Notes: a model not told the origin generated them from the sequence alone. 35,936 nucleotides of DNA from Gemmatimonadaceae bacterium (GCA_019694735.1 JAIBBJ010000225.1:1-35936); one strand, 5' to 3'. Positions 7,518 to 33,107 are shown, counted from the first letter of the stretch. Numbers and translations are program-made.

Positions 7518-8293
7518 TCGGGGATCTCCACGACGAGCCCGTCGTACGCGGGCCGGATGTTGGGGGGAAGCGCCGCTTCGAGGTCGGCGTGCGCCGTCTG
7601 ATGCGTCAGGTGCGTGAGGAAGGTCCGCGCGGCCCCCACGCGCGACGCGGCCTCCGCCGCCTCGCCGATGCTGAGGTGGGTCGGATGCGGCGTGCGGAAG
7701 AGGGCGTTCAGCACGAGCACCTCGACCCCAGCGAGGGTCGCGAGGGCCGCGTCGGGCAGGAGCTTCGCGTCGGTGACGTACGCGAGCGGTCCGATCCGGT
7801 ACCCGTACACGCGCATCCGGCCGTGCGGTACCTCCACCGGCGTGACGTCCAGGTGCCCGATGCGCGCCGGAACGCCCGGCTGGAGCGGGTGCGCGAAACC
7901 CTCGGGCTTCGAAGTACCCGCCAGTGGCTTCATCGCCGGATCGAAGATGTACGGGAACCGATGCGCGAGCGCGTCGAGCGTCTCCGGGGGACCGTAGAGC
8001 GGCAGCGCCCCGTCGCGCCGCACCGAGATCGCGCGGAGATCATCGATCCCGTGCGTGTGGTCGGCGTGCTCGTGCGTATAGAGCACCGCGTCCACCCGGT
8101 CCACATCGGCGGACAGCAGTTGCAGCCGGAGCTCGGGCGGCGTGTCGATGAGCAGCCGCAGGCCGCCCGACTCGACGAGCGCCCCGACCCGGGTCCGGCG
8201 GTCGCGCGGGTCCGACGAACGGCAGACCGCGCAGCCACATCCGACCTGCGGCACGCCGAACGACGTCCCCGTGCCGAGGAAGGTGAGTCTCAC
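7514..8293 (-). CDS. PhnP-like metallo-beta-lactamase-fold phosphodiesterase
   Basis: Metal-dependent hydrolase of 259 residues. It starts RLTFLGTGTSFGVPQVGC and has a Cys cluster C19-x-C21-xx-C24, the structural zinc site seen in PhnP-type cyclic phosphodiesterases. The hallmark THEHADH (H74, H76, D78, H79) follows, then YVTDAK and THLTHQT supplying later metal ligands. PhnP acts on ribose 1,2-cyclic phosphates; relatives act on other cyclic or nucleotide phosphodiesters, and the substrate here is unknown. The GTG start at 8293 overlaps the pyruvate kinase stop, and its stop overlaps the pgi start, so it is embedded in the sugar-phosphate operon. That context suggests a sugar-phosphate or damaged-metabolite substrate, which is inference. 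Confidence 0.85.
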   Translation of the reverse strand: MRLTFLGTGTSFGVPQVGCGCAVCRSSDPRDRRTRVGALVESGGLRLLIDTPPELRLQLLSADVDRVDAVLYTHEHADHTHGIDDLRAISVRRDGALPLYGPPETLDALAHRFPYIFDPAMKPLAGTSKPEGFAHPLQPGVPARIGHLDVTPVEVPHGRMRVYGYRIGPLAYVTDAKLLPDAALATLAGVEVLVLNALFRTPHPTHLSIGEAAEAASRVGAARTFLTHLTHQTAHADLEAALPPNIRPAYDGLVVEIPE

Positions 8294-9699
8294 ACCGTCT
8301 CCACCTTGAGCTGATTGGTGGTGCCCGGCACGTCGAACGGCACGCCCGCGGTGACCACGATGCGGTCGCCGGGCTTGGCGAGCCCATGCTCGCGCAACTT
8401 CGTGCGCGCGATGGCCGCCATCTGCTCGTACGTGTCGCAGTGCGGCACGAGGATCGGCACGACGCCCCATACCAGCGCCAGTTGCCGGTACGTGCGCGCA
8501 TTGTCGGTCAGGCAGACGATCCGCACGCCCGGGCGCCGGGCGGCGACGATGCGAGCCGAGAAGCCGCTCTTCGTGATGACCACGATCGTCTCGGCACCCA
8601 GGAGCCGCACGGCGGTGACCGTCGCCGACGCGATCGTCTCCTCGGTCGAGGCCGAGCCCGGCTGCACCCGGTCGAGCCCCTGGCCTCGCAGCACCGGGTG
8701 CGCCTCGGCAGCACCGGCGATGCGGCGCATCGCCTCCACCGCGAGCACCGGATGGAGGCCGGCCGCCGTCTCGGCGGAGAGCATCACCGCGTCGGTACCG
8801 TCGAGGATGGCGTTGGCGACGTCCGAGGCCTCGGCGCGCGTGGGGCGCGGATTCTGGATCATGGACTCGAGCATCTGCGTCGCCGTGATCACCGGGCGCC
8901 CGTACCGGCTCGCGAGCGAGATGATGCGCTTCTGCTGCAGCGGCACCTCCTCGAACGGCAGCTCGACGCCGAGGTCACCGCGCGCCACCATCACGGCGTC
9001 GGTGGCCTTGAGGATCTCCTCGATCCGGTCGAGGGCGGAGTCCTTCTCGATCTTCGCGACGATCAGCATCCCCTTCGGGAGGAGCGCGCGCAGCTCATCG
9101 ATGTCCTCCGGCCGGCGGACGAACGACAGCGCGAGGTAATCGAGGTCCTGCTCGACCGCGAACGCGATGTCGGCGCGGTCCTTCTCGGTGAGGGACGGGG
9201 CGGAGACGTCGATGCCGGGGAGGTTCATCCCCTTGTTCGACTTGAGCAGGCCGCCGAACCGCACGCGCACCGCGACCCGCGGTCCGTCGAGGCCGGTCAC
9301 CTGCAACGCGAGGAGGCCGTCGTCGACGAGGATGGTCCCGCCCTTCTGCACGTCCTTCGCGATGTCGTCATACGTGACCGGGATCTCGCCCGGCCGCGCG
9401 AGCCCCTCGGGGCACAGGACGAGCGACTCGCCCTCGGCGATCGGCCGCGCCTCGGCCAGCTTGCCGATGCGGATGCGCGGCCCCTGCAGGTCGCCGAGGA
9501 TCGCGACCGGCCGCCCGACGTCCTGGGCGATGCCGCGGATCGTGGCGATCGTGCGTGCGTGGTCCTCGTGCGCGCCGTGCGAGAAGTTGAGGCGGGCCAC
9601 GTTCATGCCAGCCAGCATGAGACGGCGGATCACGTCGGGGTTGGCCGACGAGGGACCCATGGTGCAGACGATCTTCGTGACGTCGGGGCGGACGGGCAT
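8290..9699 (-). CDS. pyk: Pyruvate kinase
   Basis: Transfers phosphate from phosphoenolpyruvate to ADP, the last step of glycolysis. Its 469 residues match the bacterial family. Landmarks are TKIVCTMGPSS at the N-terminus, ARLNFSHG (35-42), LGDLQGPRIRIG (68-79), the active-site signature MLIVAKIEKDSAL with catalytic K216, VMVARGDLGVELPFEEVP, the ATQMLESM helix with PTRAEASDVANA, and the effector-type C-terminal domain with VVITKSG. Start is ATG at 9699, 43 bases after the transaldolase stop on the same strand. The stop overlaps the start of the metallo-hydrolase gene. Allosteric control cannot be judged from sequence alone. Confidence 0.96.
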   Translation of the reverse strand: MPVRPDVTKIVCTMGPSSANPDVIRRLMLAGMNVARLNFSHGAHEDHARTIATIRGIAQDVGRPVAILGDLQGPRIRIGKLAEARPIAEGESLVLCPEGLARPGEIPVTYDDIAKDVQKGGTILVDDGLLALQVTGLDGPRVAVRVRFGGLLKSNKGMNLPGIDVSAPSLTEKDRADIAFAVEQDLDYLALSFVRRPEDIDELRALLPKGMLIVAKIEKDSALDRIEEILKATDAVMVARGDLGVELPFEEVPLQQKRIISLASRYGRPVITATQMLESMIQNPRPTRAEASDVANAILDGTDAVMLSAETAAGLHPVLAVEAMRRIAGAAEAHPVLRGQGLDRVQPGSASTEETIASATVTAVRLLGAETIVVITKSGFSARIVAARRPGVRIVCLTDNARTYRQLALVWGVVPILVPHCDTYEQMAAIARTKLREHGLAKPGDRIVVTAGVPFDVPGTTNQLKVETV

Positions 9700-10963: not shown

Positions 10964-12919
10964 ATGTCCCGGTCCGTCCCGTCCGCCCCCCGCCGATGGT
11001 CTCCGTTCGCCCTCTGGCGGACGCTCCCGTTCACCGCGCAGCTCCTCGCGCTCGGGATGATGGTGGGGCTCTTCTGGTTCCTCGCCTCCCGCGCGGCCGC
11101 CGAGCGCCAGCAGCAGGCGGTCCAGGAGCGGACCGCCCAGCTGGTGGAGCTGCAGCGCGCCGCGCTCCTCGCGGCGCAGCTCGGCCGCGGGATCGTCGAG
11201 ATGTCCCGAGACCACCGCGGCTACCTCATCACCGGCGATGCGGCGTTCGTCGCCTCCTTCGGTGCGGACAGCGCGCGGATGGCGCAGACGGCGCAACGCC
11301 TCCTGCGCAGCCATCCGACCCCCGCCGTCTCCCTCGAACTGGACCGCATCGACGCCCACCTGCAGACGTGGCTCGACGTGGCCGTGACCCCGTCGCGCCG
11401 GGGTCCGCCACCGCGCGGGCCGGTCCAACTCGCGTCCGCCCACATCGACAGCGCGCTCGCCGCGCAGGCCCGGCTGGAGCGGCACCTGGAGGTGGAGGTC
11501 GCCGAGACGGAGCTCCTCGCCGACGCGGCCGCGACCCGTGACGACCTCTCGACCTTCCTCGCCTCCACGGGCGGACTCGCGGTCCTGATCCTCCTGCTGA
11601 TGCTGCTGATGCGGTTCGTCGGCCGAACGCTCGACCGGATCGTCGAGGCCGCCGAGGCGATCGACGCCGGCCGCTACCGCGCCGCCGCGTTCCCGCGGGC
11701 GGACGAAGCCCCGAACCGCGAGACCGCGACGCTGGCGCGCGCCTTCGAACAGCTCGCGGAGTCCACCGCGCGGCGCGAGGCCCAGCTGCAGGACGACGTC
11801 GAGCGCCTCACCGAGATGGAGCGGCTCAAGCGCGACTTCGTCTCCACGGTCAGCCATGAGCTGCGCACGCCGCTCACGTCGATGCGCGGCGCGCTGGGGC
11901 TGATCCTCGGCGGCCGGATCGGGGACGTGCCCGCCAAGGTGCGCGAGCTGCTGCAGATCGCGATGTCGAACACCGAACGGCTGATCCGCCTCGTCAACGA
12001 CATCCTCGATGTCGAGAAGATCGACGCCGGCGCGATGCAGGTCCGGCGGGAACCCATGCGGCTCCGCGGGCTGCTCCAGCACACCATGGTGCTCCTGGAC
12101 AGCTTCGCGCGCGACCACGGCGTCCGGCTCGAGCTCACGTCCGGGGGACGCGATGCGGACATCGTCGGCGACCCCGACCGGCTCACCCAGGTCTTCACGA
12201 ACCTGGTGTCGAACGCGGTGAAGTTCTCCCCCTCCGGCACGACGGTGTCGCTCTCGCTCGCGGCGTCACCGGCGGGCGTCACCGTCCGGGTGCGGGATCA
12301 CGGGCCTGGCGTGCCGCCGGAGTTCGCGCCGCGGCTCTTCGGCCGCTTCCAGCAGGCGGAGCGGGCGGAGTCGCGCCGCCCCGGCGGCACCGGGCTCGGG
12401 CTCAACATCGCCCGCACGCTGGTCGAGCAGCACGGGGGGGCCATCGGCTTCGACCCGGCCGACGGCGGCGGGGCGGTGTTCTGGGTGACGCTGCCCGCGA
12501 GCGCGATCCACGAGGAGGAGGCCGCAGCGCCCGCGCCGGCCGATCCGCGGCGCGTCGTGCTCATCATCGAGGACGATCCGTCCATGCGCGAGGTGCTCAC
12601 GGCGATGGTCGAGCCCATCGCGCGCGCGCTCCCCGTAGGGTCCGGCGAGGAGGCGTTCGCGGCGCTGGCGCACGAGCCGGTCGGCGCGGTGATCCTCGAC
12701 CTCGAGCTGCCGGGCATGCATGGCTTCGAGTTCTCCCGCCGCCTCCGGCAGGACCCGGCCCTGCGCAAGCTGCCCGTGCTGCTCTTCTCGGCGCGCGAGC
12801 ACGGCACGGAGGAACTGCGCGCGGCCGGCATCCGTGCGGCCGACGCGTTCGTCAAGACGCGCGACTCGGAGCAGGTCCTGTTCGAGCGGCTGCGGAAGGA
12901 GCTCGGCATCCCGCGCTGA
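10964..12919 (+). CDS. CHASE3 hybrid sensor histidine kinase with C-terminal receiver
   Basis: Membrane kinase of 651 residues. The first membrane segment is about residues 22-42. A periplasmic helical sensor follows (about 45-195), with the CHASE3-like stretch MSRDHRGYLITGD, then a second membrane segment (203-220) and a HAMP-like linker. HisKA has the phospho-His298 in FVSTVSHELRTPLTS. The ATPase shows LTQVFTNLVSNAVKFSP, DHGPGVPPEF and GGTGLGLNIA. A REC domain begins at 530 (VVLIIEDDPSMREVL) with acceptor D579 in VILDLELPGMHGFEF and the Lys in AFVKTRDS. The internal ATG at 10964 is chosen because upstream sequence in the same frame is antiparallel to transaldolase and not protein-like. As a hybrid kinase it needs an Hpt partner; one lies nearby at 15434-17341. 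Confidence 0.93.
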   Translation: MSRSVPSAPRRWSPFALWRTLPFTAQLLALGMMVGLFWFLASRAAAERQQQAVQERTAQLVELQRAALLAAQLGRGIVEMSRDHRGYLITGDAAFVASFGADSARMAQTAQRLLRSHPTPAVSLELDRIDAHLQTWLDVAVTPSRRGPPPRGPVQLASAHIDSALAAQARLERHLEVEVAETELLADAAATRDDLSTFLASTGGLAVLILLLMLLMRFVGRTLDRIVEAAEAIDAGRYRAAAFPRADEAPNRETATLARAFEQLAESTARREAQLQDDVERLTEMERLKRDFVSTVSHELRTPLTSMRGALGLILGGRIGDVPAKVRELLQIAMSNTERLIRLVNDILDVEKIDAGAMQVRREPMRLRGLLQHTMVLLDSFARDHGVRLELTSGGRDADIVGDPDRLTQVFTNLVSNAVKFSPSGTTVSLSLAASPAGVTVRVRDHGPGVPPEFAPRLFGRFQQAERAESRRPGGTGLGLNIARTLVEQHGGAIGFDPADGGGAVFWVTLPASAIHEEEAAAPAPADPRRVVLIIEDDPSMREVLTAMVEPIARALPVGSGEEAFAALAHEPVGAVILDLELPGMHGFEFSRRLRQDPALRKLPVLLFSAREHGTEELRAAGIRAADAFVKTRDSEQVLFERLRKELGIPR

Positions 12920-12940: not shown

Positions 12941-14365
12941 TCACGCGGTCCGGCCGATCCCCTCGCGCGGCATGCGGCCCCAGGTGTCCACCCCGCGGAA
13001 GAACCGCCAATAGCCGAGGAGCCGGAACAGCACCGTGAGCTGGCGGAAACCGATCCCCTCGACGACCGCGAACGCCACGAGCTTGAGGAAGTCCCGGCGA
13101 CGCTTGTAGCGGCGGAAGCTCAGCTCCTCGAGCACGATCGCCCAGAGCGAGAGCAGCATGCCGTAGCCGACCGCCACCGCGAGGAAGAGGGCGGCGAACT
13201 CGCCGTTGACCGCGCCGACGAGGACCCCGAGCGCGAGCGAGACGAGCCCGAAGAGCTCGACCGCCGGGGCGAGGGTCTCGCCGAACACGTAGAACGGCAT
13301 CGCGAGCATCCCGATGCGGCCGTAGCGCGGGTTCAGCAGCATCACGCGGTGCTCCCACATCGTCGCGATGAGCCCGCGGTGCCAGCGCTCCCTCTGGCGC
13401 GCCAGCACCGCCACGCTCGCCGGGACCTCCGTCCAGGCGACCGGGTCGGGCACGAACGGCAGCTGCGCCTGGATGCGATTCTCGCGCAGCCAGCGGTGCA
13501 GCCGCACGACGAGATCCATGTCCTCCGTCACGTTGCCGGTCCGGTAGCCGCCGATCGCCCGGAGGTACTCCTTGCGGAAGAGCCCGAACGCGCCCGAGAT
13601 GATGAGGTTGCAGCCGAGGGCATTGAGGCCCATGCGCCCGAAGAGGAAGGCGCGCAGGTACTCGACCACCTGGCAGCCGGGCAGCCAGCGCGAGTCGATC
13701 CGGGCATCGGTGACGCGGCCGAACTCCACGGTGCAGCTGTTGGCGACCCGGATCGTGCCGCCCACCGCCGCCACGTTGGGATTGAGCAGGAACGGGCGCG
13801 CGAGACGCAACAGCGCATCGGGCTCGATGATGGTGTCCGCGTCCACGGCGACCACGAACGGATGGCGCGCGGCGTTCATCGCGGCATTGAGCGCGTCGGC
13901 CTTCCCGCCGTTCTCCTTGTCGATCACCAGCAGGCGCGAGTGCAGCCGCGACCGGTAGTAGGCCCGCACGGCCTTCGTCGGCACCGACACCGAGAAGGCG
14001 GGCGGGACCTGGTACAGGTCGAACTCCTCGAGCAGCACCTCCATCGTGCGATCGCTCGACCCGTCGTTCACCACCACCACCTCGAGATGCGGGTACTCGA
14101 GGGTCAGGAACGACAGCAGCGACGACCCGACCGTGACCTCCTCGTTGTGGGCCGGCACCAGGAGGGACAGCGGCGGCAGCGCCTCGGTGGCGAGGAGCCG
14201 CTGCAGGTGCTCGTCGGCCGCGAGACGCCAGTGGCGCCAGAGTTCGGGGATCGAGAGCAGCAGCAGCACCGCGTAGGCGGTGTTGAGGAGCAGGAGATAG
14301 ACGAGCGCGATGTGGTCGCCGGCCCAGAGGACGGACCGGATCGCATCGGCGATGGCCACGCCCAC
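12941..14365 (-). CDS. Family 2 processive glycosyltransferase, PgaC/hyaluronan-synthase type
   Basis: Inner-membrane polysaccharide synthase of 474 residues. It has an N-terminal membrane segment (about 18-38), a GT-A domain, and several C-terminal membrane segments (about 345-450). Catalytic motifs are complete: LSLLVPAHNEE (67-76), VVNDGSSD (98-105, D101), VVAVDADT (171-178), TED (280-282) and QRERWHRG (324-331), the Q-x-x-R-W signature of processive enzymes such as PgaC, NodC and BcsA. No PilZ domain is present, unlike BcsA. The sugar is unknown; N-acetylglucosamine is a reasonable guess. The GTG start at 14365 lies one base after the HEAT protein stop. Together with the Hpt/REC protein it forms the minus arm of the polysaccharide locus. 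Confidence 0.92.
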   Translation of the reverse strand: MGVAIADAIRSVLWAGDHIALVYLLLLNTAYAVLLLLSIPELWRHWRLAADEHLQRLLATEALPPLSLLVPAHNEEVTVGSSLLSFLTLEYPHLEVVVVNDGSSDRTMEVLLEEFDLYQVPPAFSVSVPTKAVRAYYRSRLHSRLLVIDKENGGKADALNAAMNAARHPFVVAVDADTIIEPDALLRLARPFLLNPNVAAVGGTIRVANSCTVEFGRVTDARIDSRWLPGCQVVEYLRAFLFGRMGLNALGCNLIISGAFGLFRKEYLRAIGGYRTGNVTEDMDLVVRLHRWLRENRIQAQLPFVPDPVAWTEVPASVAVLARQRERWHRGLIATMWEHRVMLLNPRYGRIGMLAMPFYVFGETLAPAVELFGLVSLALGVLVGAVNGEFAALFLAVAVGYGMLLSLWAIVLEELSFRRYKRRRDFLKLVAFAVVEGIGFRQLTVLFRLLGYWRFFRGVDTWGRMPREGIGRTA

Positions 14366-14366
14366 G

Positions 14367-15434
14367 CTACGCGTCCCCCATCTCGAGGATCGCCCCCTCC
14401 GTCAGCCCGGTGACCATCGCCGCCATGTCGCGCGCGAAGCGGTCGCCGCCCGCGCGCGCCTCGCGCAACGCGGCCTTGCCGCGCTCGCCGAGCTGGGCCA
14501 GGGAGACGGCGGCGCGGACGCGGACGATCCAGACCCCGTCCCCGAGCACCGGGACGAGTGCGGGCACCGCGCTCCGGAGGCCGAGCTCGCCGACCGTCCG
14601 CGCCGCGGCGGCCCGCACCGTCGGATCCCGGTCGGCGAGCAACGTGACCAGCGCCGCCTCCGCCGCCGGGCTCGGCGCACGGCGGAGCGCCTTCGCGATC
14701 GCGCGCCGGACCGCCGGCGACGGGTCGCCGACGCGCGCGATCGACGCCGCCACCGCCGCCGGCTCGGCGATCGCCTCGGCCAGCTCGACCCATGCCGCCA
14801 CCGTCGCGAAGTGCCCGCCGCGCGCGATCCGCTCGGCGAGCGCCGGGGCGACGAGCTCGCGTGCGCGCCGCAGTACGCCGGTGACGTAGTGGCGCACGAC
14901 CTTGGGCAGCGAGTCGAGGCGGTCGAGCACGAGGCCGACCAGCACCGCATCCGCGACGCGCGGCAGGGCGCCGGCGGCCGCGACCTGCACGGCCGGGTGC
15001 GTGTCGAAGAAGAGCCGCTGCACGATCGCGCGATGCGCCGCGTCGGCGGTGACCGAGAGCGCGCGGGCGGCCTCGAGGCGGCGCCACCAGAAACGCGAGC
15101 CCGCCTGTCGCACCGCGTGCCGCACCCAGTGCTCGCCGCGCAGCGCCCGCGCGAGCTCCTCGCGGTTCGAATCGGGGATCGTCTGGCGCGCGAGGAGCGC
15201 GAGATAGCCGACCGCGGTCCCGCGCGGCATGCCGCGCAGGACCGCCACCACGGGCTCGGGGTGCGCCCCGGCGACCAGCCAGGCCCGCAACGGCGCCGAG
15301 AGCGCGCCCTTGCCCGCCTCGAACGCCGCTGCCTGCCGCCGGTCGTACACGCGCCGCACGACCAGGAACGCGAGCAGCAGCACCAGGAAGAGGAGCTGCA
15401 CCACGGCGACGGTCGCGGCGACGAGGATCCCCAT
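14367..15434 (-). CDS. Membrane-anchored HEAT-repeat protein
   Basis: Protein of 355 residues with one N-terminal membrane segment (about 5-27, VAVVQLLFLVLLLAFLVV), a basic stop-transfer stretch (RRVYDRRQ), and then a long alpha-helical region. The second half shows clear HEAT/PBS-lyase-type repeats, for example DPSPAVRRAIAKALRRAP, DRDPTVRAAAARTVGELG and GVWIVRVRAAVSLAQLG. The repeats are predicted to face the cytoplasm. HEAT solenoids are scaffolds for protein contacts, so it could link the glycosyltransferase to a regulator; that role is inferred from gene order only. Start ATG at 15434 shares one base with the upstream stop (TGATG), and the stop is two bases before the glycosyltransferase start, giving tight coupling on both sides. 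Confidence 0.87.
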   Translation of the reverse strand: MGILVAATVAVVQLLFLVLLLAFLVVRRVYDRRQAAAFEAGKGALSAPLRAWLVAGAHPEPVVAVLRGMPRGTAVGYLALLARQTIPDSNREELARALRGEHWVRHAVRQAGSRFWWRRLEAARALSVTADAAHRAIVQRLFFDTHPAVQVAAAGALPRVADAVLVGLVLDRLDSLPKVVRHYVTGVLRRARELVAPALAERIARGGHFATVAAWVELAEAIAEPAAVAASIARVGDPSPAVRRAIAKALRRAPSPAAEAALVTLLADRDPTVRAAAARTVGELGLRSAVPALVPVLGDGVWIVRVRAAVSLAQLGERGKAALREARAGGDRFARDMAAMVTGLTEGAILEMGDA

Positions 15435-17341
15435 CAGGCGAGCTCGTCCTGCTCCTGCCAGACCGCGATCTTCGCCATCAGCACGCGGAGCGAGACCGGC
15501 TTCACGATGTAGTCGAGCGCGCCCGCGCGCAGGGCGCGCAGCTGGTCGCCTTCCGAGGCGTGCACCGAGACGAAGACCACGCGGAAGTCGCGCGGACGGT
15601 CCACGCGGAGCCGCTCGAACAGCGAGAAGCCGTCGAGCCCGGGCAGGTCGATGTCCATCAGCACGACCGGCCGGCGCCCGCGCACCCGCATCGCCAGGAG
15701 CCCGGCGAGGGCCTCGGGGCCCTTCGAGAACACCTGGTGCGTCAGTCCCCGGCTCGCGAGGGCGTAGCCGAGCAGGTCCGCGAGCGAGGGGTCGTCCTCG
15801 ACCACCACGACATCGGGGGCGATGCCCGCGTCGCCGGTGTTCCACCGGTGGATCCGCTCGCCGGCGTCGCGCGCCGACTGCCACGCCTCCTCCGCGAGAT
15901 GCACGAGGGTGCGTGCCCCCCGGTCGCCATCGGCCGGCCGGTCCGCGATGCCCACGCACCATTCGGTGGGCTCCCCCTCCGAGGCCTCCGCGAATCCGTC
16001 GAGGCGCGCGATCGCCTCGCCGCCGTCCATCGGGAGCAGCACGCCGAGGGCGGTCTCGTCCACGAATCCCGTGCGCGCTCCCTCCGGCGCGAGCGCGGCG
16101 GCCAGGAGGGCGCATTCCCGATGCCAGAGCGCGGTCCCCTGCAGCCCGGCGGGTGGCACCCGCGGCCGCACCACGGCGAGCGCGACCGCGCGGCCGTCCA
16201 CGCCCGCGCTCGCGAGCGACTCCTCGAAGCTCCGCCGGGTCCGCTCGGGGAGCATCAGCGACGTACCCGGATGGATGCCGCGCGCCAGCTGCCGCTGCCG
16301 GCGCAGCTCGAGCAGTCGCGTGATCCGTCGCGTCAACTCGACCGCGACCACCGGCTGCGGTTGGAAGTCGTCGGCCCCCACCCGGAAGAGTGCCTCGCGT
16401 CGCGCCCCGTCGGCGCCGTCCGCGACGACGAGGATCGGGAGCTCGCCGAAGCGGCGGTCGCCACGCACCTGCTGGATCGCCTCCTCCGCATCCATGCCGA
16501 CCCCCGTGGCATCCACGAGCATCAGCGCCGGGGGATCCGCCTGCAGCTGGGCGAACAGGGCGGCCCGGTCGGCGGCGACGCGGACGAACATCCCCTCGCG
16601 CTCCCCGATGGCCTCCAGCAGGGCGGTCAGCGGCGCTCCCGCGGCGAGCGCGACGAGGCTCGCCCCAGCGAGCCCCTGCTGCGCCGCCAACGACTCCGCG
16701 ACGCGGACGACCTCCGCAGCATCGGCCCCGGGATCCACCAGCCGCACCCGCGTCACGCCGGCCGAGGGGAGTTCCGACGCCCCCAGCAGCACGACCGGCA
16801 CACCCTCCGGCAGCGCCGGCAGCGTGTCGCCCCCGGCGATCACGACCTCCGGCACGCCGCTCGCGAGCACGGTCTCGAGCGCCCCCGAGACGATCCGCTC
16901 CACGCCATGCCCGCGGTGAAGCGCCTCGGCGATGAGCGCGGCGGCGGTGTCCTCGCTCACGTCCACGAGCAGGATGCGGTGCACGAGCCGGTCATCGCCG
17001 GCGCCTCGCGCCGCCTCGAACGCGGCCCCGAGCGCCCGCACGAGCTGGCGCACGATCGCCGCACGCCGGTCGCGGTCGCGCACGGGATCGGCCTGCCACC
17101 GCGTGGCGAGCAGCTCCAACCCGGCCGCGAGCCGGCTCACCTCGTGGAAGCCGTAGCTCCCGGCGGTCCCGTGGACGCGGTGCAGTTCGCGCCGCAGCGC
17201 GTCGACCACCTCCACCGACGAGGGGGTCCGCTGGAGATGGTCCGCCAGCATCGTGAGCGCCGCCGTCGTCTTCTCCGCCGTCGCCGCGAAGCGGTCGCGG
17301 AGCGTGGCGAGCGTGCGGTTGAGCTCGGCGGGTGAGGGCAT
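15434..17341 (-). CDS. Hpt - degenerate REC - REC - degenerate GGDEF - REC regulator
   Basis: Regulatory protein of 635 residues with no membrane segment. Residues about 10-112 form a histidine phosphotransfer domain with H57 in HRVHGTAGSYGF. Residues about 120-220 look like a receiver that lost its acceptor Asp. About 228-345 is a second receiver with LMLVDATG (Asp277) but Gln in place of the Lys (DDFQPQP). About 353-500 aligns by eye with a GGDEF domain: MLPERTRRSFEES at the start, VDETALGVLLP where GGDEF should be, and WCVGIADRP after it, so cyclase activity is not expected. Residues 510-635 are a complete receiver (VVVVEDD, LMDIDLPGLDG with D563, K614 in YIVKPV). It heads the HEAT-glycosyltransferase operon and could pass phosphate between the neighbouring hybrid kinase and receivers. 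Confidence 0.88.
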   Translation of the reverse strand: MPSPAELNRTLATLRDRFAATAEKTTAALTMLADHLQRTPSSVEVVDALRRELHRVHGTAGSYGFHEVSRLAAGLELLATRWQADPVRDRDRRAAIVRQLVRALGAAFEAARGAGDDRLVHRILLVDVSEDTAAALIAEALHRGHGVERIVSGALETVLASGVPEVVIAGGDTLPALPEGVPVVLLGASELPSAGVTRVRLVDPGADAAEVVRVAESLAAQQGLAGASLVALAAGAPLTALLEAIGEREGMFVRVAADRAALFAQLQADPPALMLVDATGVGMDAEEAIQQVRGDRRFGELPILVVADGADGARREALFRVGADDFQPQPVVAVELTRRITRLLELRRQRQLARGIHPGTSLMLPERTRRSFEESLASAGVDGRAVALAVVRPRVPPAGLQGTALWHRECALLAAALAPEGARTGFVDETALGVLLPMDGGEAIARLDGFAEASEGEPTEWCVGIADRPADGDRGARTLVHLAEEAWQSARDAGERIHRWNTGDAGIAPDVVVVEDDPSLADLLGYALASRGLTHQVFSKGPEALAGLLAMRVRGRRPVVLMDIDLPGLDGFSLFERLRVDRPRDFRVVFVSVHASEGDQLRALRAGALDYIVKPVSLRVLMAKIAVWQEQDELA

Positions 17342-17446
17342 CGCGGGGACAGGGCGGTTCGCGCGGGAGTGCGCGGGCGAAATCTCGCGCCTCCGTCCGA
17401 CAAAGTGATAGAGGGCGGACACTGCCGAAGTTCGTGACAGGGCGCG

Positions 17447-17475
17447 TTGCCAGCCCCCGGCCGCTCGGGCAGATT
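17447..17475 (+). promoter_or_regulatory. Candidate sigma-70 promoter of the plus arm of the polysaccharide locus
   Basis: TTGCCA (17447-17452) and CAGATT (17470-17475) are separated by 17 bases. Transcription would begin about 7 bases later, next to the ATG at 17483, so the mRNA may be nearly leaderless. It lies in the 141-base gap between the two divergent operons. Matches to the -35 and -10 consensus are partial. Confidence 0.4.
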
Positions 17476-17482
17476 CCCCTGC

Positions 17483-17848
17483 ATGCGCCTTCTGTGCGCC
17501 GACGACGAGCCGGACCTCAGGACCATCCTCGACCTCGCCTTGCGCCTCGATCCGCGGATCGAGGCCGAGATCTTCCCCGCCGGTGACGCCCTGCTCGAAC
17601 GGGCACGTGCCACGGGGGCTGACGCCATCCTCCTCGATGCGATGATGCCGGGAATGGACGGGCTCGAGACCTGCCGCCGACTCAAGGCCGACCCGGCGAC
17701 GGCCGCCATCCCCGTGATCTTCCTCACCGCGCGTGCGCAGGAGGCCGACGAGGCCGCGCTGCGCGCAGCGGGCGCCCTGGCGAGCCTGCCGAAGCCGTTC
17801 GACCCGCTCACCCTCGCCGGCGACCTGCTGCGCGTCCTCGGCCGATGA
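17483..17848 (+). CDS. Single-domain response regulator (CheY-like receiver)
   Basis: Stand-alone receiver of 121 residues with no output domain. It starts MRLLCADDEPDLRTIL (acidic pair D7, D8), has acceptor D52 in AILLDAMMPGMDG, T82 in VIFLTARA and K104 in SLPKPFDP, so it should be phosphorylatable. Start is ATG at 17483, and its stop overlaps the next start as ATGA. It is the first gene of the plus arm and divergent from the Hpt protein. Such small receivers act as phosphate shuttles or bind a target directly. Given its neighbours, a link between Hpt H57 and the polysaccharide machinery is plausible but unproven. Confidence 0.92.
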   Translation: MRLLCADDEPDLRTILDLALRLDPRIEAEIFPAGDALLERARATGADAILLDAMMPGMDGLETCRRLKADPATAAIPVIFLTARAQEADEAALRAAGALASLPKPFDPLTLAGDLLRVLGR

Positions 17849-20496
17849 GCCGGCTGGCGCGCCGGTTCGCGCGGGCGGTCCTGCCGTGGTGCCTCGCCTG
17901 GCGCGCGGCGCACGCACAGCAGGCGCCCGCCGGGCGGTGTCCTCCAGGGACCGACACGATCGTCGCCGCCGGGTGGGCGGCGTATCGCGCCGATGACCTC
18001 GGTCGCGCCGCGGAGCGGTTCGCGGCGGCGCTCGCGGGGTGCCCGCTCGATCATGACGCGACGCTGGGCCGGGCGTACGTGCGCCTGCGCGCCGGCGCGG
18101 TCGCCGAGGCCGATTCGCTGTTCGCGGTGCTCACCGCGCGCGTGCCGCGCTCGGCCGACGCGTGGGAAGGCCGCGCCCGCTCGGCGGAACGCCGGGGGGC
18201 GTCCGTCGAGGCGGTGAGCGCGTGGCGGCAGGTCGTGACGCTCACCGCGGACACCGCGGGCGCCCACCGCGCGGCCCGTGAACGCCTCGATCGGCTCGCG
18301 CCCGGCTGGGACCGGAGCGGCCCGCTCCCCAAGCGCCGCGCGGCGACCCTCGACCTCACGATGCGCGTGCGCGGCGACCGCTTCGAGCTCCGCGATGGCG
18401 ACGAGTGGCGCCCCTTCTACGTGCAGGGGGTGAACCTCGGCGTCGCGCTCCCGGGGCGCTTCCCGACCGAGTTCCCCGAGGACTCCGCGCGCTACGCGCG
18501 CTGGCTCGACCAGATCGCGGCGATGCACGCCAATGCGGTGCGCACGTATACGATCCTGCCGCCGGCCTTCTATCGCGCGCTCCGGGGCCACAACCGCACC
18601 CATCCCGACGCGCTCGTGCACCTGATCCACGGCGTCTGGACGGAGGCGCCCCCGCGCAACGACTTCGGGGACCGCGCCTTCGACGAGGACTTCACCCAGG
18701 AGATCCGCCGCGTCGTGGACCTCCTGCACGGCGCCGCCGAGTTCCCCGCGCGTCCCGGACACGCCGGCGGCCGCTACGATGCGGACGTGTCGCCGTGGGT
18801 GATCGCCTACGTGATCGGGCGCGAATGGGAGCCGTACGCCGTCGGGGGCTACGACGCCGACCCGCGTGCGCCCCGGCGCTTCCTGGGGTCGCACCTCGTG
18901 CTCGAGGCGGGGACGCCCACCGAGGCATGGCTCGCGCGCCATTGCGATGCGCTGCTCGCCTACGAGGAGGCCACCTACAACGCGCAACGGCCGATCGCCT
19001 TCACGAACTGGCCGACGACCGACCCCATCCGCCATGCGACCGAGACCTCGTTCGCGGACCAGATGCGGTTCCGCGGGATCCCGTGGCGACCCGACCAGGC
19101 GCGCGGCCCCGTGCACGAGGAGGAGGGCGCGGCACTCGACCCGGCCCACGTGCGCCCCACCGCGCGCGCCGCGGCCGGGTGGTTCGCCAGCTACCACGTC
19201 TATCCGTACTACCCCGACTTCATGCTGCTCGACCCGGGGTATCGCGCTGCGGCCTCGAGCCTCGGCCCGTCGCCGTACTTCGGCTACCTGCAGGAGCTGA
19301 AGCGCGTGACCGCCGGCCTGCCGCTCCTCATCGCGGAGTTCGGCCTTCCCACCAGCCGCGGCGACGCCCATCAGCATCCGACCGGCTGGGACCATGGCGG
19401 CCTCGGCGAGGCGCGAGCCGCGGCACTCTACGTGCGCATGGCGCGCGAGATCCGCGAGGCCGGTGCGGCCGGTGCCATCGCGTTCGCATGGATCGATGAA
19501 TGGTTCAAGACGAACTGGTCCGTCGTCGACGCCGAGCAGCCGGCGGTGCACGACCCGCGCTGGCACAACGTCCTCGACCCGGAGGAGCACTACGGACTGC
19601 TCGCGCTCCGGGCCGGGCCGGAGGGGGCGACCCCGCTCCCCGGCGGCGACGTGGCGCGGTGGCGAGCGCTCCCGATCCACGCGGAAGGCACGCTGGGTGC
19701 GGCCGGCCGCGCACGGCTGCGCGTGGGGTACGACGAGGCATACGTGTATCTCGCACTCGAAGCCGAGGCGTGGGCGGACCGTCCCTTCGCCTGGGACGTG
19801 ACCCGCCTGCAGTTCGCCATCGACACCTACGACGCGGCGCGCGGGCAGCACCGCCTGCCGACGAGCGGCGTCCGGAGCGCGGCGGGCTTCGAGTTCCTCG
19901 TCGAGCTCGGCGCGCCGGATGACGGACGACTGCGTGTCGTGCCCGAATACCTGGTCCAGGCACCGTTGTCACTGACGCTCGCGCGCGACTCCTGGGGCGT
20001 GCCGTTCCGGCACCCGGTGCTGTCCGTGCCGCGCGACGACGCCGTCTTCGACTCGCTCTGGGCGATGACCAACCGGCCCCGCTACCTGCCGGATGGGACG
20101 CTCGTGCCGGCTCAGGGGCTCGAGGTCGGACGCCTGCGGTATGGCGACGCGTCCCTGCTCTCGATCGCCGACTGGTGGTACGATCAGGGCGCGGGTATGC
20201 TCCAGTTGCGCCTGCCGTGGGGGCTGCTGAACGTCGCCGATCCGTCCTCGCGGCGCGTCCTCGATGAACGCGGCGGCTCGGAGGGCACGACGGTGACCGC
20301 GGGATTCCGCATCGGCGTCGTGGCGCTCGGGCGCGGGGGCCGCGTCGGCGGCACCCTTCCCGCGTTGGACGCCGACGGCCGCTGGCCACTCGACCGCCTC
20401 ACCCTCTGGACCTGGCCCACCTGGGACACCCCGACGTGGCACGAGTACCTCAAGCCCGCCTACACGGCGCTGCAACAGCTGTGGCGCGCGCCATGA
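17845..20496 (+). CDS. Secreted TPR plus clan-A glycoside hydrolase with C-terminal beta domain
   Basis: Exported protein of 883 residues. The signal peptide probably ends after AHA (residue 24). Residues about 40-155 contain TPR-like helical pairs (YRADDLGRAAERFAAALAG). Residues about 175-560 resemble a clan-A TIM-barrel hydrolase. It begins WRPFYVQGVNLGVALPG, has candidate acid/base E327 in YVIGREWEP at the end of strand 4, and candidate nucleophile E498 in LLIAEFGLP at strand 7; AFAWIDEWFKTNW lies on the last strand. The remainder (about 600-880) is beta-rich and resembles a CBM9/DOMON-type sugar-binding domain (DEAYVYLALEAEAW, LQFAIDTYDA). Hydrolases accompany other synthase-dependent polysaccharides, where they trim or release chain. 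It overlaps its neighbours on both sides (ATGA). Substrate unknown. Confidence 0.85.
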   Translation: MSRLARRFARAVLPWCLAWRAAHAQQAPAGRCPPGTDTIVAAGWAAYRADDLGRAAERFAAALAGCPLDHDATLGRAYVRLRAGAVAEADSLFAVLTARVPRSADAWEGRARSAERRGASVEAVSAWRQVVTLTADTAGAHRAARERLDRLAPGWDRSGPLPKRRAATLDLTMRVRGDRFELRDGDEWRPFYVQGVNLGVALPGRFPTEFPEDSARYARWLDQIAAMHANAVRTYTILPPAFYRALRGHNRTHPDALVHLIHGVWTEAPPRNDFGDRAFDEDFTQEIRRVVDLLHGAAEFPARPGHAGGRYDADVSPWVIAYVIGREWEPYAVGGYDADPRAPRRFLGSHLVLEAGTPTEAWLARHCDALLAYEEATYNAQRPIAFTNWPTTDPIRHATETSFADQMRFRGIPWRPDQARGPVHEEEGAALDPAHVRPTARAAAGWFASYHVYPYYPDFMLLDPGYRAAASSLGPSPYFGYLQELKRVTAGLPLLIAEFGLPTSRGDAHQHPTGWDHGGLGEARAAALYVRMAREIREAGAAGAIAFAWIDEWFKTNWSVVDAEQPAVHDPRWHNVLDPEEHYGLLALRAGPEGATPLPGGDVARWRALPIHAEGTLGAAGRARLRVGYDEAYVYLALEAEAWADRPFAWDVTRLQFAIDTYDAARGQHRLPTSGVRSAAGFEFLVELGAPDDGRLRVVPEYLVQAPLSLTLARDSWGVPFRHPVLSVPRDDAVFDSLWAMTNRPRYLPDGTLVPAQGLEVGRLRYGDASLLSIADWWYDQGAGMLQLRLPWGLLNVADPSSRRVLDERGGSEGTTVTAGFRIGVVALGRGGRVGGTLPALDADGRWPLDRLTLWTWPTWDTPTWHEYLKPAYTALQQLWRAP

Positions 20497-22103
20497 CCGG
20501 ACGCGCGCGCGGCGTCCGGATCGCGGTCGCGGTGACGCTGGGGCTCGCGACCGCCGCGGCGCCGCGCGCCGGCGCGCAGGTCGCGGTCGGGGATTCGCTC
20601 TGGCAGCTCGGACGGCACGACGAGGCGGCCGCAGCGTACCGGAAGGCGCTCGAGGAGGACCGCTTGTCCGTGCGCGCGAACTTCCGCGTCGCGCAGGTAC
20701 TGGCCTGGAGCAACAACATCGACTCCGCCCTCGTGCTCCTGCGCGCCGCACGGGTGCGCGTGCCGGACGATCCCGACCTGCGCTACACCGAGGCGATGTA
20801 CCTGTCGTGGGTGCGTCGCTTCGACGAGGCCCTCGTGCGGTACGATTCGGTGCTCACCCTGCTGCCGCCGGGTGAGGCGGGGTATGTGCGCCTCGCGCGC
20901 GCACGCACGCTCTCGTGGGCCGGCCGGCTCGACGAGGCGGCCCGCGCGTACTCGGCCCTGCTCGCGGCGGACGCCAGCGATCGCGAGGCGCGGTTCGGAC
21001 TCGCTCAGGTCAGCGCGTGGAGCGGGCGGCTCGATGAGGCGGCCGCGCGCTACGAGGCCCTCCTCGCCGAGGCGCCGGGGGACGTGCGGACGCTCGTCGG
21101 GCTCGGGAACCTGCGACTCTGGCAACAGCGGCCGGGGGCGGCGCGCCGACTCGCGGAACGGGCATGGGCGGTGGACAGCACCGACGCCGGGGTGCGCGAC
21201 CTGCGGCGCGCCGTCGCCGCCGCCGGCGCGCCGCAGGTCGAGGTGTCGAGCGACTACTCCGAGGACTCCGACCGCAACGTGAACCGGTGGCGCGCCGTTC
21301 GCCTCGGCGCGCTGCTGTTCGACCGGGCCCGCGGGGGCGTCGCCGTCGCGCAGTTGGAGGCCACCGATCCCGCCCGCATCTCGCGCCGCACGATGCTCGA
21401 GGGCTCGCTCGCCGTGCCGGTGCTCCGCGGCAACATCACCGGCGTGCTCGCGCTGCGACAGATGACGCCCGGCCCCCGCGATCCCGGCGGGACCGCGGCG
21501 CCGGCCCGCGATGTGCTCAGCGGCCGCCTCACGCTCAGCCAGCGGCTGCGCCCGACGCTCACCGCCTACGGCACCGTCGCGCGCTGGCCGTTCGACGAGA
21601 TCGCCGCGGTCGCGCCGCTCGCACTCGATGTGACGCAGTTCGACCTGTCCGTCGATTGGCGGGTGCGTCCGCGCCTCACCGTCGCCGGCGCGCTCAGCCT
21701 GCTCGACTGGTCGGACGGCAACACCAAGCGCACGTGGACCACCCGCGCGACCCGTACGCTGCCGCACGGCTTCTCGGCGGGCATCAGCGCGCTCGGCTTC
21801 GGCTTCGACCGCCGGGCGTCGCGCTACTTCTCGCCGCCGCGCTTCGTCACCGGCGAACTGACCGGGGGCTGGTCACGCGAGACCCCGCGGTGGAGCCTCG
21901 GCGTCGGCGCAGGACTCGGAGTCCAGCGCGTGGACACCGCGGCGATGCAGGATCAATGGCACCTCGACGCGCGCGCGGCCCGTACGTGGGCGGGCGGCTG
22001 GACCGCGGAAGTGCACGGCGGACGCAGCACGAGCGCGGCTGCGTCCGCCGTCGGAGCCTACGCCTACTCGACGCTCGGCGTCGTCCTGCGCCGGACCTTC
22101 TGA
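20493..22103 (+). CDS. TPR plus YaiO-like outer-membrane beta-barrel protein
   Basis: Exported protein of 536 residues. The signal peptide likely ends after AGA (residue 28). Residues about 30-215 hold about five TPR units with the recurring pattern GRLDEAARAYSALLA. Residues about 235-536 are alternating amphipathic strands ending in an aromatic (VVLRRTF), the mark of an outer-membrane barrel; this layout matches YaiO-type proteins and is analogous to PgaA and BcsC. It would form the exit for a polysaccharide, with the TPRs recruiting periplasmic partners. Start ATG at 20493 overlaps the hydrolase stop as ATGA. Its stop is only four bases from the end of the convergent DUF2911 gene, and I see no terminator between them. 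A sixteen-strand porin-like channel has not been verified. Confidence 0.85.
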   Translation: MTGRARGVRIAVAVTLGLATAAAPRAGAQVAVGDSLWQLGRHDEAAAAYRKALEEDRLSVRANFRVAQVLAWSNNIDSALVLLRAARVRVPDDPDLRYTEAMYLSWVRRFDEALVRYDSVLTLLPPGEAGYVRLARARTLSWAGRLDEAARAYSALLAADASDREARFGLAQVSAWSGRLDEAAARYEALLAEAPGDVRTLVGLGNLRLWQQRPGAARRLAERAWAVDSTDAGVRDLRRAVAAAGAPQVEVSSDYSEDSDRNVNRWRAVRLGALLFDRARGGVAVAQLEATDPARISRRTMLEGSLAVPVLRGNITGVLALRQMTPGPRDPGGTAAPARDVLSGRLTLSQRLRPTLTAYGTVARWPFDEIAAVAPLALDVTQFDLSVDWRVRPRLTVAGALSLLDWSDGNTKRTWTTRATRTLPHGFSAGISALGFGFDRRASRYFSPPRFVTGELTGGWSRETPRWSLGVGAGLGVQRVDTAAMQDQWHLDARAARTWAGGWTAEVHGGRSTSAAASAVGAYAYSTLGVVLRRTF

Positions 22104-22107
22104 GCGC

Positions 22108-22674
22108 TCACTTCGCGGCCCAGTCGGTCGAGAGGTGCAGCGTGCCCCACGCGATGGTGAGCTTGCCCGCCGCCGGGCCGCTCGCCGGCGGCACGAACGC
22201 GATCTGCAGCGACTCGACCGGCTCGTGCAGCGTCCGCGCGGTCAGCGGGACACGCGCGAGGTCCTTGGACTTGTCGTACTCGGTGCCCCACTGGCCGGTG
22301 TTGCGATTGATGATCAGGAAGTACTTCCCGCCCTCGCGGATCGAGTAGAGCGAGTACGCCCCGGCAGGCACCGCCACGCCGCCGATCGTCAGGTCCGCCT
22401 GTGTGGTCAGCGTCGTCGAGCTGTTCGCGCCCGTGCGCCAGACCGTGCCGTCGGTGGCCAGCTCGGTCGGGACGGCGCGGCCGCGCGCGTGCGGCTGGCC
22501 GTAGTCCACCGTGATGGTCTTGGCCGCCGCAGGCGCCTGCCCCTGCACGCGCGGCGCCGTCAGCGTGACGACCGCGGTCGCGCGGGTGCTGGGCGCGGCG
22601 GAGAGAGTCTGGGCGGCACTGGGCGCCGCAACGGTCATGACGAGGAGAGCGGCAAGAACGGGACTGGTGCGCAT
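22108..22674 (-). CDS. Secreted DUF2911 protein
   Basis: Exported protein of 188 residues with a cleavable signal peptide (SPVLAALLVMTVAAPSAAQ). It carries the DUF2911 fold marks ITVDYGQPHARGR, WRTGANSSTTLTT and AGAYSLYSIREGGKYFLIIN, with GQWGTEYD after. DUF2911 proteins are common secreted proteins in Bacteroidota and Gemmatimonadota and have no assigned function. The start at ATG 22674 is chosen because it begins the signal peptide; a GTG at 22740 would add a Pro/Arg-rich segment unlike an export signal. A TACATT at about 22724-22729 on the minus strand may serve as -10. It is convergent with the barrel gene and divergent from the MerR regulator. Confidence 0.83.
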   Translation of the reverse strand: MRTSPVLAALLVMTVAAPSAAQTLSAAPSTRATAVVTLTAPRVQGQAPAAAKTITVDYGQPHARGRAVPTELATDGTVWRTGANSSTTLTTQADLTIGGVAVPAGAYSLYSIREGGKYFLIINRNTGQWGTEYDKSKDLARVPLTARTLHEPVESLQIAFVPPASGPAAGKLTIAWGTLHLSTDWAAK

Positions 22675-22810
22675 CGGTCTCTTGGAGGGGTGAAGGAGGA
22701 CAGGCCGCGGTGGGCCGATGCTCAATGTACGCCGGAGCATGCGGCGGAGTTCTCCAAGGATCCACGGGATGCTGTAGTCGGGATACGGGCGCGCCCTCGC
22801 GTCCGATGCC

Positions 22811-22912: not shown

Positions 22913-23854
22913 ATGACCGAGTCCACCGGAAAGCCCGTCCTTCACCCGATGCGCGTCGTCGCGCAACGCACCGGGTTGACCCCCGATCTGCTGCGGGCGT
23001 GGGAGAAGCGCTACGGGGCGGTCGCCCCCGTCCGATCCGCGGGCGGACAACGGCACTACACGGATGCGGACGTCGAGCGGCTCTCGCTCCTCGTGCGCGC
23101 CACGCGCTCCGGTCGGCAGATCGGCCAGGTCGCGTCGCTTGCCAACGCCGAACTGCAGAAGGTCATCGAGGCAGACGAGCGCGCGGCCGCGCTGAACCGC
23201 GCGCCGTCAAGCGACGGCCCGGCCCCAGAGATCTTCCTGTCCACGGCCCTGATGGCGATCGAGGCGTTCGACGCGTACACGCTCGAGCAGACCCTGCGGG
23301 CGGCGGCGCTCCGCCTGCCCGCCGATGACGTGCTCGATCAGGTCTTCGGCCCGCTGCTCTTCACGGTCGGCTCGCTGTGGCACCAAGGGCAGCTGCAGCC
23401 GGCCAATGAGCACCTTGCCTCGACGACGATCCGTCGGGTGCTGACCTGGATGGGCGAGGTCGCGTCACCCGGGATGGGGGCGCCCGTCGTGATCGTCGGC
23501 ACCCCGGCCGGACACCTCCACGAGATCGGCGCCATGCTCGCCGCGACCACCGCCAGCGGCAGCGGGTGGCGGGTGATCTACCTCGGGCCCAACCTGCCGG
23601 CGGAGGAGCTCGCGCGCGCCGCCAAGCAGGTGAAGGCCGACGTGGTGGCGCTCTCCATCGTCTATCCGACGTCCGACACCACCGTCGTGGACGAGCTCCG
23701 GCGCCTGCGCGCGCACCTGCCGTCCACCACGGGCATCGTGGTCGGTGGCGCCGGCGCGACGAGCTACGGGGACGTGCTGAGGGAGATCGGCGCCGATGCC
23801 CTGAACTCGCTCACGGCGCTGCGGCAGTGGCTGCGCCGCCGGGTGCGGGGCTGA
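22913..23854 (+). CDS. CarH/LitR-type MerR regulator with cobalamin-binding domain
   Basis: Transcription factor of 313 residues. The N-terminal MerR winged helix spans about 11-80 (RVVAQRTGLTPDLLRAWEKRYG, then GGQRHYTDADV). A helical bundle follows (about 105-185) with the W-x9-E-H motif: W156, E166, H167. The B12-binding Rossmann domain (190-313) has H203 in HLHEIG, LSIVYPTSD and VVGGAGATSYG. In CarH photoreceptors adenosylcobalamin drives tetramer formation and repression in the dark, and light breaks it. The Trp, the His beside it (H157), the Glu-His pair and the lower-ligand His are all kept here, though the acidic residue of the usual E/D-x-H-x-x-G motif is His201. No carotenoid or photolyase gene is adjacent, so targets are unknown beyond likely autoregulation. 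Confidence 0.9.
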   Translation: MTESTGKPVLHPMRVVAQRTGLTPDLLRAWEKRYGAVAPVRSAGGQRHYTDADVERLSLLVRATRSGRQIGQVASLANAELQKVIEADERAAALNRAPSSDGPAPEIFLSTALMAIEAFDAYTLEQTLRAAALRLPADDVLDQVFGPLLFTVGSLWHQGQLQPANEHLASTTIRRVLTWMGEVASPGMGAPVVIVGTPAGHLHEIGAMLAATTASGSGWRVIYLGPNLPAEELARAAKQVKADVVALSIVYPTSDTTVVDELRRLRAHLPSTTGIVVGGAGATSYGDVLREIGADALNSLTALRQWLRRRVRG

Positions 23855-33055: not shown

Positions 33056-33107
33056 GCGGTCCTCGAGGAAGACGGTAGGGAAGGAGGAGGGAATGGACGG
33101 GCCTGGG

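Follow-up and report, generated by a model that had tools for sequence, protein, structure and literature searches.

A conserved gene cluster of Gemmatimonadaceae that probably encodes an exopolysaccharide synthase under phosphorelay and HEAT-protein control

Overview of the cluster

In a 35,936-nt stretch of DNA from a Gemmatimonadaceae bacterium (GCA_019694735.1 JAIBBJ010000225.1:1-35936; hereafter the window, in whose numbering all coordinates are given) a cluster of six genes at 12941-22103 very probably serves to synthesize a sugar polymer, trim it and export it. We read it as a synthase-dependent exopolysaccharide machine whose synthase, a family-2 glycosyltransferase (GT), is controlled via a phosphorelay and a HEAT-repeat adaptor protein, and we put the probability of this reading at about 0.68. 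Best supported are the role of the GT as synthase, the pairing of a glycoside hydrolase (GH) with an outer-membrane (OM) barrel for processing and export, and the grouping of receiver (REC), HEAT protein and GT as one unit. The cluster is conserved and is not a local accident: the set stays together in relatives and the host genome (~3.5 Mb, 97% complete) holds only ~5 HEAT_2 genes, so that its conservation goes beyond chance.

The six open reading frames (ORFs) lie in two divergent groups with overlaps or few-base gaps at four junctions. On the minus strand the order is regulator (15434-17341), HEAT protein (14367-15434) and GT (12941-14365), the HEAT start overlapping the regulator stop and a 1-nt gap separating HEAT from GT, whilst on the plus strand a single-domain receiver (17483-17848), the hydrolase (17845-20496) and the barrel protein (20493-22103) follow one another with 4-nt overlaps at both junctions. 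The 141-bp intergenic region between the two operons (17342-17482, no strand assigned) is presumed to hold both promoters. An earlier reading made from the DNA alone (the sequence-only reading) had proposed these six genes, divergent and with near-zero spacing, and had assigned a domain composition to each; all of the ORFs are present and the domains were recovered by Pfam or structural models as described below. Its range of 12941-22103 captured the six genes correctly and left out a hybrid kinase gene at 10964-12919 that belongs to the locus.

The synthase and its HEAT partner

The GT (PF13641, E 9.5e-27) has four predicted transmembrane (TM) segments and a complete set of processive family-2 motifs (DGS101, DAD175, TED280 and QRERW324), the D, DxD, TED, QxxRW and multiple-TM layout of such enzymes. 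PgaC, to which the earlier reading had likened the enzyme, is its best NCBIfam family at 132 bits, far below the cut-off of 422; against the CelA profile it scores 39.5 bits, with a cut-off of 699. Orthologues are 47-76% identical, and the protein is probably both polymer synthase and inner-membrane channel.

The HEAT protein (HEAT_2, E 3.3e-17) was, as foreseen, found to be membrane-anchored through one N-terminal TM segment (residues 8-26) that is trailed by an Arg-rich turn, so that by the positive-inside rule the HEAT domain is predicted to be cytoplasmic. This N-terminal TM segment is kept across phyla wherever it was checked. In a spirochaete locus (L100:1991-5098) HEAT and GT share one stop-free frame of 1036 residues, with HEAT_2 at residues 114-188 and the GT2 domain at 607-731. 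Gene order and this one fusion suggest that the HEAT protein may gate the synthase.

Conservation of the locus

Loci for comparison were collected via the hydrolase or the GT, such that co-occurrence counts are conditional on those genes, and many derive from metagenome assemblies with short contigs. Among 200 genomes of the phylum, 22 have a clear match to the hydrolase (weak TPR-only or short matches excluded), and a GT orthologue is present in 20 of these 22 vs 31 of the 178 others (Fisher p 8e-12, uncorrected for phylogeny); hydrolase and barrel thus remain linked to one another and to the GT rather than to unrelated pathways, as the sequence-only reading required. Retention of the genes together in relatives, a check set beforehand, was likewise seen both in same-phylum loci and outside the phylum. 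The set is together in changed order in L031, L032 (where no solo REC was found), L039, L041 and L043, and L045 keeps it but lacks the solo REC and the greater part of the regulator. L039, from another family, has a collinear operon in the order kinase, REC, regulator, HEAT, GT, hydrolase and barrel.

Alignment of the hydrolase drew 79 loci from a collection of ~85,000 genomes, with taxa including Gemmatimonadota, Holophagaceae/Geothrix, a Lysobacter, a cyanobacterium, spirochaetes, Eremiobacterota, Abyssobacteria, Actinobacteria and Exiguobacterium. Among 103 non-redundant loci from this collection and the phylum, a profile search found 60 GTs, of which 50 are directly preceded by HEAT; in 43 of those 50 a receiver in turn precedes HEAT. 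The ten GTs without a profile HEAT are accounted for: one lies at a contig end (L037), three have HEAT by Pfam (L040, L102 and L148), one is the L100 fusion, one has a split GT frame with HEAT present (L111), and four are similar Exiguobacterium loci, of which the one tested (L122) has HEAT by Pfam. The possibility that some GT loci lack HEAT was accordingly rejected, a HEAT gene being found upstream of every GT whose upstream sequence is readable. Of 20 further GT loci, in which no hydrolase lies close by, 17 keep regulator, HEAT and GT as a group by profile; in the remainder HEAT is found by profile (L146) or by Pfam (L143 and L148).

The REC-HEAT-GT trio recurs in Gemmatimonadota, Holophagaceae, Exiguobacterium, Actinobacteria, Alphaproteobacteria and haloarchaea. 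Exiguobacterium sibiricum has the order hydrolase, receiver, TM-HEAT and GT with no barrel, and the barrel is absent from the monoderm loci examined (L122-L125, L127 and L129). An independent plasmid collection yielded 13 GT records, and the eight that are annotated (Halosolutus, Haloarcula, Salinirubellus, Mesorhizobium, Erythrobacter, Deinococcus, Bacteroides and Planococcus) all carry a 'HEAT repeat domain-containing protein' directly upstream (Prokaryotic Genome Annotation Pipeline). A response regulator is near HEAT-GT in the first five of these, and the Mesorhizobium locus additionally has a kinase-like gene, two receivers, YaiO and an Hpt gene.

Within this conserved set two parts behave differently. 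The GT tree unites the window with L031, L041 and L043, all of the same genus (support 98/99), whereas the hydrolase and barrel trees alike join the window and L031 to L032 and put L041 and L043 at a different position, fully supported. Since both trees split the same-genus loci identically and the GT tree unites them, hydrolase and barrel travel as a pair on a stable backbone. The two are encoded in one frame in L047/L076, L078 and L107. The data show that REC-HEAT-GT is the backbone and hydrolase-barrel a swappable cassette, which in some loci has been lost, fused or exchanged, or has given way to a YaiO barrel. The earlier view of the six genes as one unit therefore holds in that they are kept together; the conserved unit is REC-HEAT-GT, with the hydrolase-barrel pair separable from it. 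A same-genus locus from a 1.8-Mb genome (L140) keeps receiver and barrel with no hydrolase between them and retains the rest of the cluster, a natural loss of the hydrolase.

Signalling proteins

The regulator (15434-17341, minus strand), delineated by Pfam, alignment and motifs, comprises an Hpt domain (H54 in the motif HRVHGTAGSYG), a degenerate receiver, a receiver without the acidic pair, a degenerate GGDEF and an intact C-terminal receiver; its listed ORF begins too far upstream. The first full receiver has lost the acidic pair in the window and kept it in same-genus relatives. The Hpt/REC/degenerate-GGDEF/REC composition anticipated for this protein was recovered, with Hpt and two Response_reg stretches found by Pfam and the GGDEF homology by hhalign. 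In the GGDEF segment (residues 355-505; 15827-16279, minus strand) the signature motifs are gone, and a five-member family profile of it aligns throughout its length to the intact GGDEF of L039 (E 9e-5, probability 60). An intact GGEEF occurs in the regulators of L039 (PF00990, E 4e-39), L149 and L078, whereas in L059, L085, L134 and L139 the regulator is only Hpt plus receiver (~284 residues), and the Holophagaceae counterpart is a receiver only. Across this range the cyclase part is variable and the receiver constant.

The single-domain response regulator (17483-17848, plus strand; Pfam E 9e-22), divergent from the regulator operon and expected from the earlier reading, is 66-69% identical within the genus and could be aligned to receivers encoded in Exiguobacterium, Geothrix and Thermoleophilia loci. 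The receivers examined showed no DNA-binding output domain by Pfam, so that a protein target is expected.

The hybrid histidine kinase (10964-12919, plus strand) has a CHASE3-HAMP-HisKA-HATPase-REC arrangement by Pfam and two predicted TM segments. It is convergent with the GT, ending 21 bp from the GT stop, and is found at the equivalent position in three genomes of the genus (L031, L041 and L043; 47% identity). It is probably the phosphodonor of the locus. Judged by its sequence motifs the locus thus appears to hold all parts of a multistep phosphorelay, namely a hybrid kinase, an Hpt with conserved His and a terminal receiver with acidic pair and Asp.

A clan-A-like hydrolase and an exporter-like barrel

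The hydrolase (17845-20496, plus strand) has an apparent Sec signal and, in an AlphaFold2 (AF2) model (mean pLDDT 81), TPRs, a clan-A-like (beta/alpha)8 or TIM barrel and a C-terminal beta-rich domain. The fold model was needed because sequence searches against Pfam, NCBIfam and the PDB gave TPR matches only and no GH family; the TPR plus clan-A glycosidase assignment is thus borne out by a modelled TIM barrel with two invariant Glu rather than by a Pfam GH match. The candidate catalytic residues are Glu327, just past strand beta4, and Glu498 in beta7, neither of which varies among 19 sequences from many phyla. A Glu after beta4 and a Glu in beta7 is the layout expected of a retaining clan-A enzyme, and this TIM barrel with two conserved Glu at beta4 and beta7, as in GH157, is what the model contains.

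The closest solved fold is GH157 (VIA Z 29.4 for the best chain and 26-27 for other chains; Foldseek E 7e-13), with VIA Z values of 25-26 against GH2 enzymes, so that the lead of GH157 over GH2 (26-29.4 vs 25-26) is modest. GH72 Gel4 also appears in the Foldseek list, and the Exiguobacterium hydrolase has a weak, sub-threshold GH72 Pfam match. The window hydrolase shares the clan-A-like fold with GH157 and GH72 proteins, and differs from them in its low sequence identity (~15% to GH157 in structural alignment) and in its additional TPR and C-terminal beta domains. It appears to be an unclassified clan-A-like enzyme and might act on the polymer. A GH157 enzyme cleaves linear beta-1,3-glucan, the family being one of endo-beta-1,3-glucanases (PMC10229575), and the modelled GH157-like fold hints that the polymer could be a beta-glucan. 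On the plasmid of Halosolutus gelatinilyticus (L150) a sugar-phosphate nucleotidyltransferase and glmS lie downstream of the archaeal REC-HEAT-GT (6570-9544), a hint of a UDP-N-acetylglucosamine or amino-sugar precursor in that organism.

A second, partial hydrolase copy that is 59% identical lies on a 4.7-kb contig of the window's own genome (L050; contig C122, 2874-4745), and may be a paralogue, a second cassette or a co-assembled strain. The spirochaete (L100:5095-8310) and Exiguobacterium (L122:8804-11989) hydrolases have, in place of the TPRs, nearly 400 additional N-terminal residues that match no Pfam family.

The last gene of the plus-strand operon (20493-22103) encodes a protein with an apparent Sec signal, modelled as a periplasmic TPR domain followed by a 16-stranded OM barrel (AF2 pLDDT 93.5), the architecture of a TPR plus OM-barrel exporter. 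Foldseek places BcsC (7e-14) and PelB (9e-13) on top and PgaA (3e-10) at rank 6, and VIA gives Z values of 27.4 for PgaA (273 residues, 2.2 A), 26.1 for PelB and 25.9 for BcsC. The protein is probably an export channel on the strength of this model, whose closest solved folds agree with the likeness to pga, bcs and pel exporters drawn earlier. An assignment to YaiO was rejected, with no YaiO match by Pfam or NCBIfam. In L130 and L132 a YaiO-family barrel adjoins regulator-HEAT-GT and no window-type TPR barrel was detected; these loci and that of Mesorhizobium pair YaiO with the same HEAT-GT backbone and differ from the window in that their barrel is YaiO. The literature searched yielded no functional study of loci of this kind.

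Neighbouring genes

A DUF2911 protein (22108-22740, minus strand) lies between the cluster and a CarH-like MerR plus B12-binding regulator (22913-23854, plus strand), as it does in the three same-genus loci compared (L031, L041 and L043). The CarH-like gene is syntenic with the cluster in these loci and also in L140 (N-terminal sequence), and is a possible light or B12 input to the region. Further away, an ArsR-methyltransferase fusion sits beside S-adenosylhomocysteine hydrolase (31538-34046, minus strand), which are ordinary methionine-cycle genes.

Comparison with known systems

The locus resembles PgaABCD in a GT2 that is best placed in the PgaC family, a TPR plus 16-strand barrel nearest to PgaA by VIA and a periplasmic hydrolase partner, and differs in the GT score (132 bits vs 422 for PgaC) and in carrying HEAT and receiver genes. 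In poly-N-acetylglucosamine export PgaB docks on the PgaA TPRs, which modulate its hydrolase (PMC9384988), an arrangement that the hydrolase-barrel fusions would fit by analogy. PgaD (PF13994) is absent from the 97% complete genome, with a positive E. coli control, and neither Pfam nor NCBIfam found a deacetylase or PgaB family on the cluster hydrolase, the search for PgaB being confined to that protein. To the Bcs and Pel systems the likeness lies in the exporters BcsC and PelB, the top fold matches of the barrel, whereas Bcs has BcsB and a CelA-type PilZ synthase; a family search found no BcsB in the genome, and the window GT reaches 39.5 vs 699 bits for CelA and has no PilZ by Pfam, the one PilZ of the genome being on another contig. 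The absence of PilZ, PgaB-type deacetylase, PgaD and BcsB noted in the sequence-only reading accordingly stands at the locus, and for PgaD and BcsB extends genome-wide. The NfrA-NfrB pair of E. coli (phage N4 receptor polysaccharide) is similar in its GT2 with a dedicated cytoplasmic control module and a TPR/OM-barrel partner (PMC8669469), and differs in that an MshEN cyclic di-GMP (c-di-GMP) domain is fused to the NfrB GT, whereas here there is a separate membrane-anchored HEAT protein with receivers and no Pfam match to MshEN on the GT. Filing the locus as Pga, Bcs or Nfr was rejected, subunits or domains being missing; among Pel genes only the PelB-like fold was compared. The proposal of a synthesis, processing and exit set of the pga, bcs and pel kind is supported by the exporter folds and by co-occurrence.

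A survey of synthase-dependent exopolysaccharide systems names five, which do not include REC-HEAT-GT (PMC7112194). Searches combining HEAT with PgaC, YaiO, exopolysaccharide and response regulator gave no description of a HEAT-linked synthase in the literature covered, which left aside preprints and most subscription journals, and papers on the Romboutsia and Actinoplanes synthases do not describe HEAT repeats. Provisionally, the HEAT-linked synthase is undescribed.

A proposed mechanism and its alternatives

From domain content, conserved order, fusions and the exporter and hydrolase folds we infer a scheme of exopolysaccharide synthesis, phosphorelay, receiver-HEAT binding, GT gating and trimming. 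The hybrid kinase would sense an envelope signal and pass phosphate via its own receiver to the regulator's Hpt, from which it would reach the C-terminal receiver of that protein and/or the single REC. A phosphorylated receiver would then bind the cytoplasmic HEAT domain, which would sit on the GT catalytic domain and open or assemble the GT, a gating job that in known systems is done for c-di-GMP by PilZ, MshEN or PgaC/D. The GT2 would act as inner-membrane processive synthase with the chain crossing the inner membrane, and the TPR-held hydrolase would cut or transglycosylate the chain before its exit via the barrel, as happens in the Pga, Pel and Bcs systems. Monoderms and archaea would manage without the barrel, keeping receiver, HEAT and GT and sometimes the hydrolase.

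Several points weigh against this scheme. HEAT repeats are generic binding modules; the evidence for HEAT-GT contact is adjacency and one fusion in a metagenome assembly, and REC-HEAT fusions were searched for among the loci and none was seen. Twenty GT loci have no hydrolase nearby, and the GT was seen in only 40 of 83 hydrolase loci within the compared stretch, partly because contigs end. Close relatives of the window kinase adjoin the GT in this genus alone, some of the remaining loci having more distantly related kinases, and three relatives keep an intact GGDEF in the regulator. No experimental work on any cluster member was found in the literature searched.

The alternative that survives best, which we nonetheless consider unlikely, keeps the exopolysaccharide system and makes HEAT a structural or assembly factor, like PgaD or BcsB, with the receivers acting elsewhere. 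It would account for the presence of HEAT with every GT of readable upstream sequence, even where there is no annotated adjoining receiver (Deinococcus, Bacteroides and Planococcus), and the HEAT-GT fusion suits a subunit as well as a gate; it sits less easily with a receiver gene adjoining HEAT in 43 of 50 loci, and beside or close to it in three haloarchaea, and with receivers whose lack of a DNA-binding output points to a protein target.

The usual switch of synthase-dependent exopolysaccharide systems is c-di-GMP, and the link through HEAT had been suggested as a replacement for it, which holds only by half. HEAT is indeed present with or without GGDEF and some relatives have lost GGDEF, but others keep it intact, so that c-di-GMP may take part in some branches, and HEAT may provide the physical coupling. 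That c-di-GMP is the true regulator throughout, through an ancestral Hpt-REC-GGDEF-REC cyclase of which the window pseudo-GGDEF still binds dinucleotide or works with other cyclases, seems to us improbable. The intact GGEEF of L039, L149 and L078, the eight GGDEF matches and one PilZ elsewhere in the genome and the c-di-GMP control of the Bcs, Pga and Nfr synthases (PMC8669469) speak for it, whereas the window GGDEF signature is lost, many branches have only the ~284-residue Hpt-REC or a lone REC, and neither GT nor HEAT of the window has a c-di-GMP-binding domain in Pfam. Scavenging, with external beta-1,3-glucan broken down by the hydrolase and its fragments taken up through the barrel, finds some encouragement in the fold closest to GH157, a family of endo-beta-1,3-glucanases (PMC10229575), but we give it hardly any credence, as the best matches of the barrel are polysaccharide exporters, a processive GT accompanies the hydrolase-barrel pair and no importer gene was identified among the locus genes.

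Beyond control of the window synthase via phosphorelay and HEAT, we entertain, at somewhat less than even odds, an ancient general module in which a phospho-receiver acts on a membrane-anchored HEAT adaptor to gate a processive GT2 in monoderm and diderm bacteria and haloarchaea, replacing c-di-GMP or acting beside it, with an exchangeable hydrolase-barrel cassette and a new GH family. The HEAT and signalling proteins beside the synthase suggest a new way to switch exopolysaccharide synthesis. Across many phyla and into the archaea a processive synthase is tied to receiver and HEAT proteins that carry generic pipeline names, and the cultured carriers Exiguobacterium, Geothrix, Haloarcula and Deinococcus make the idea testable now. 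If the link is true, it would constitute a direct phosphorylation switch for polymer synthesis and reveal a class of biofilm loci overlooked by current surveys.

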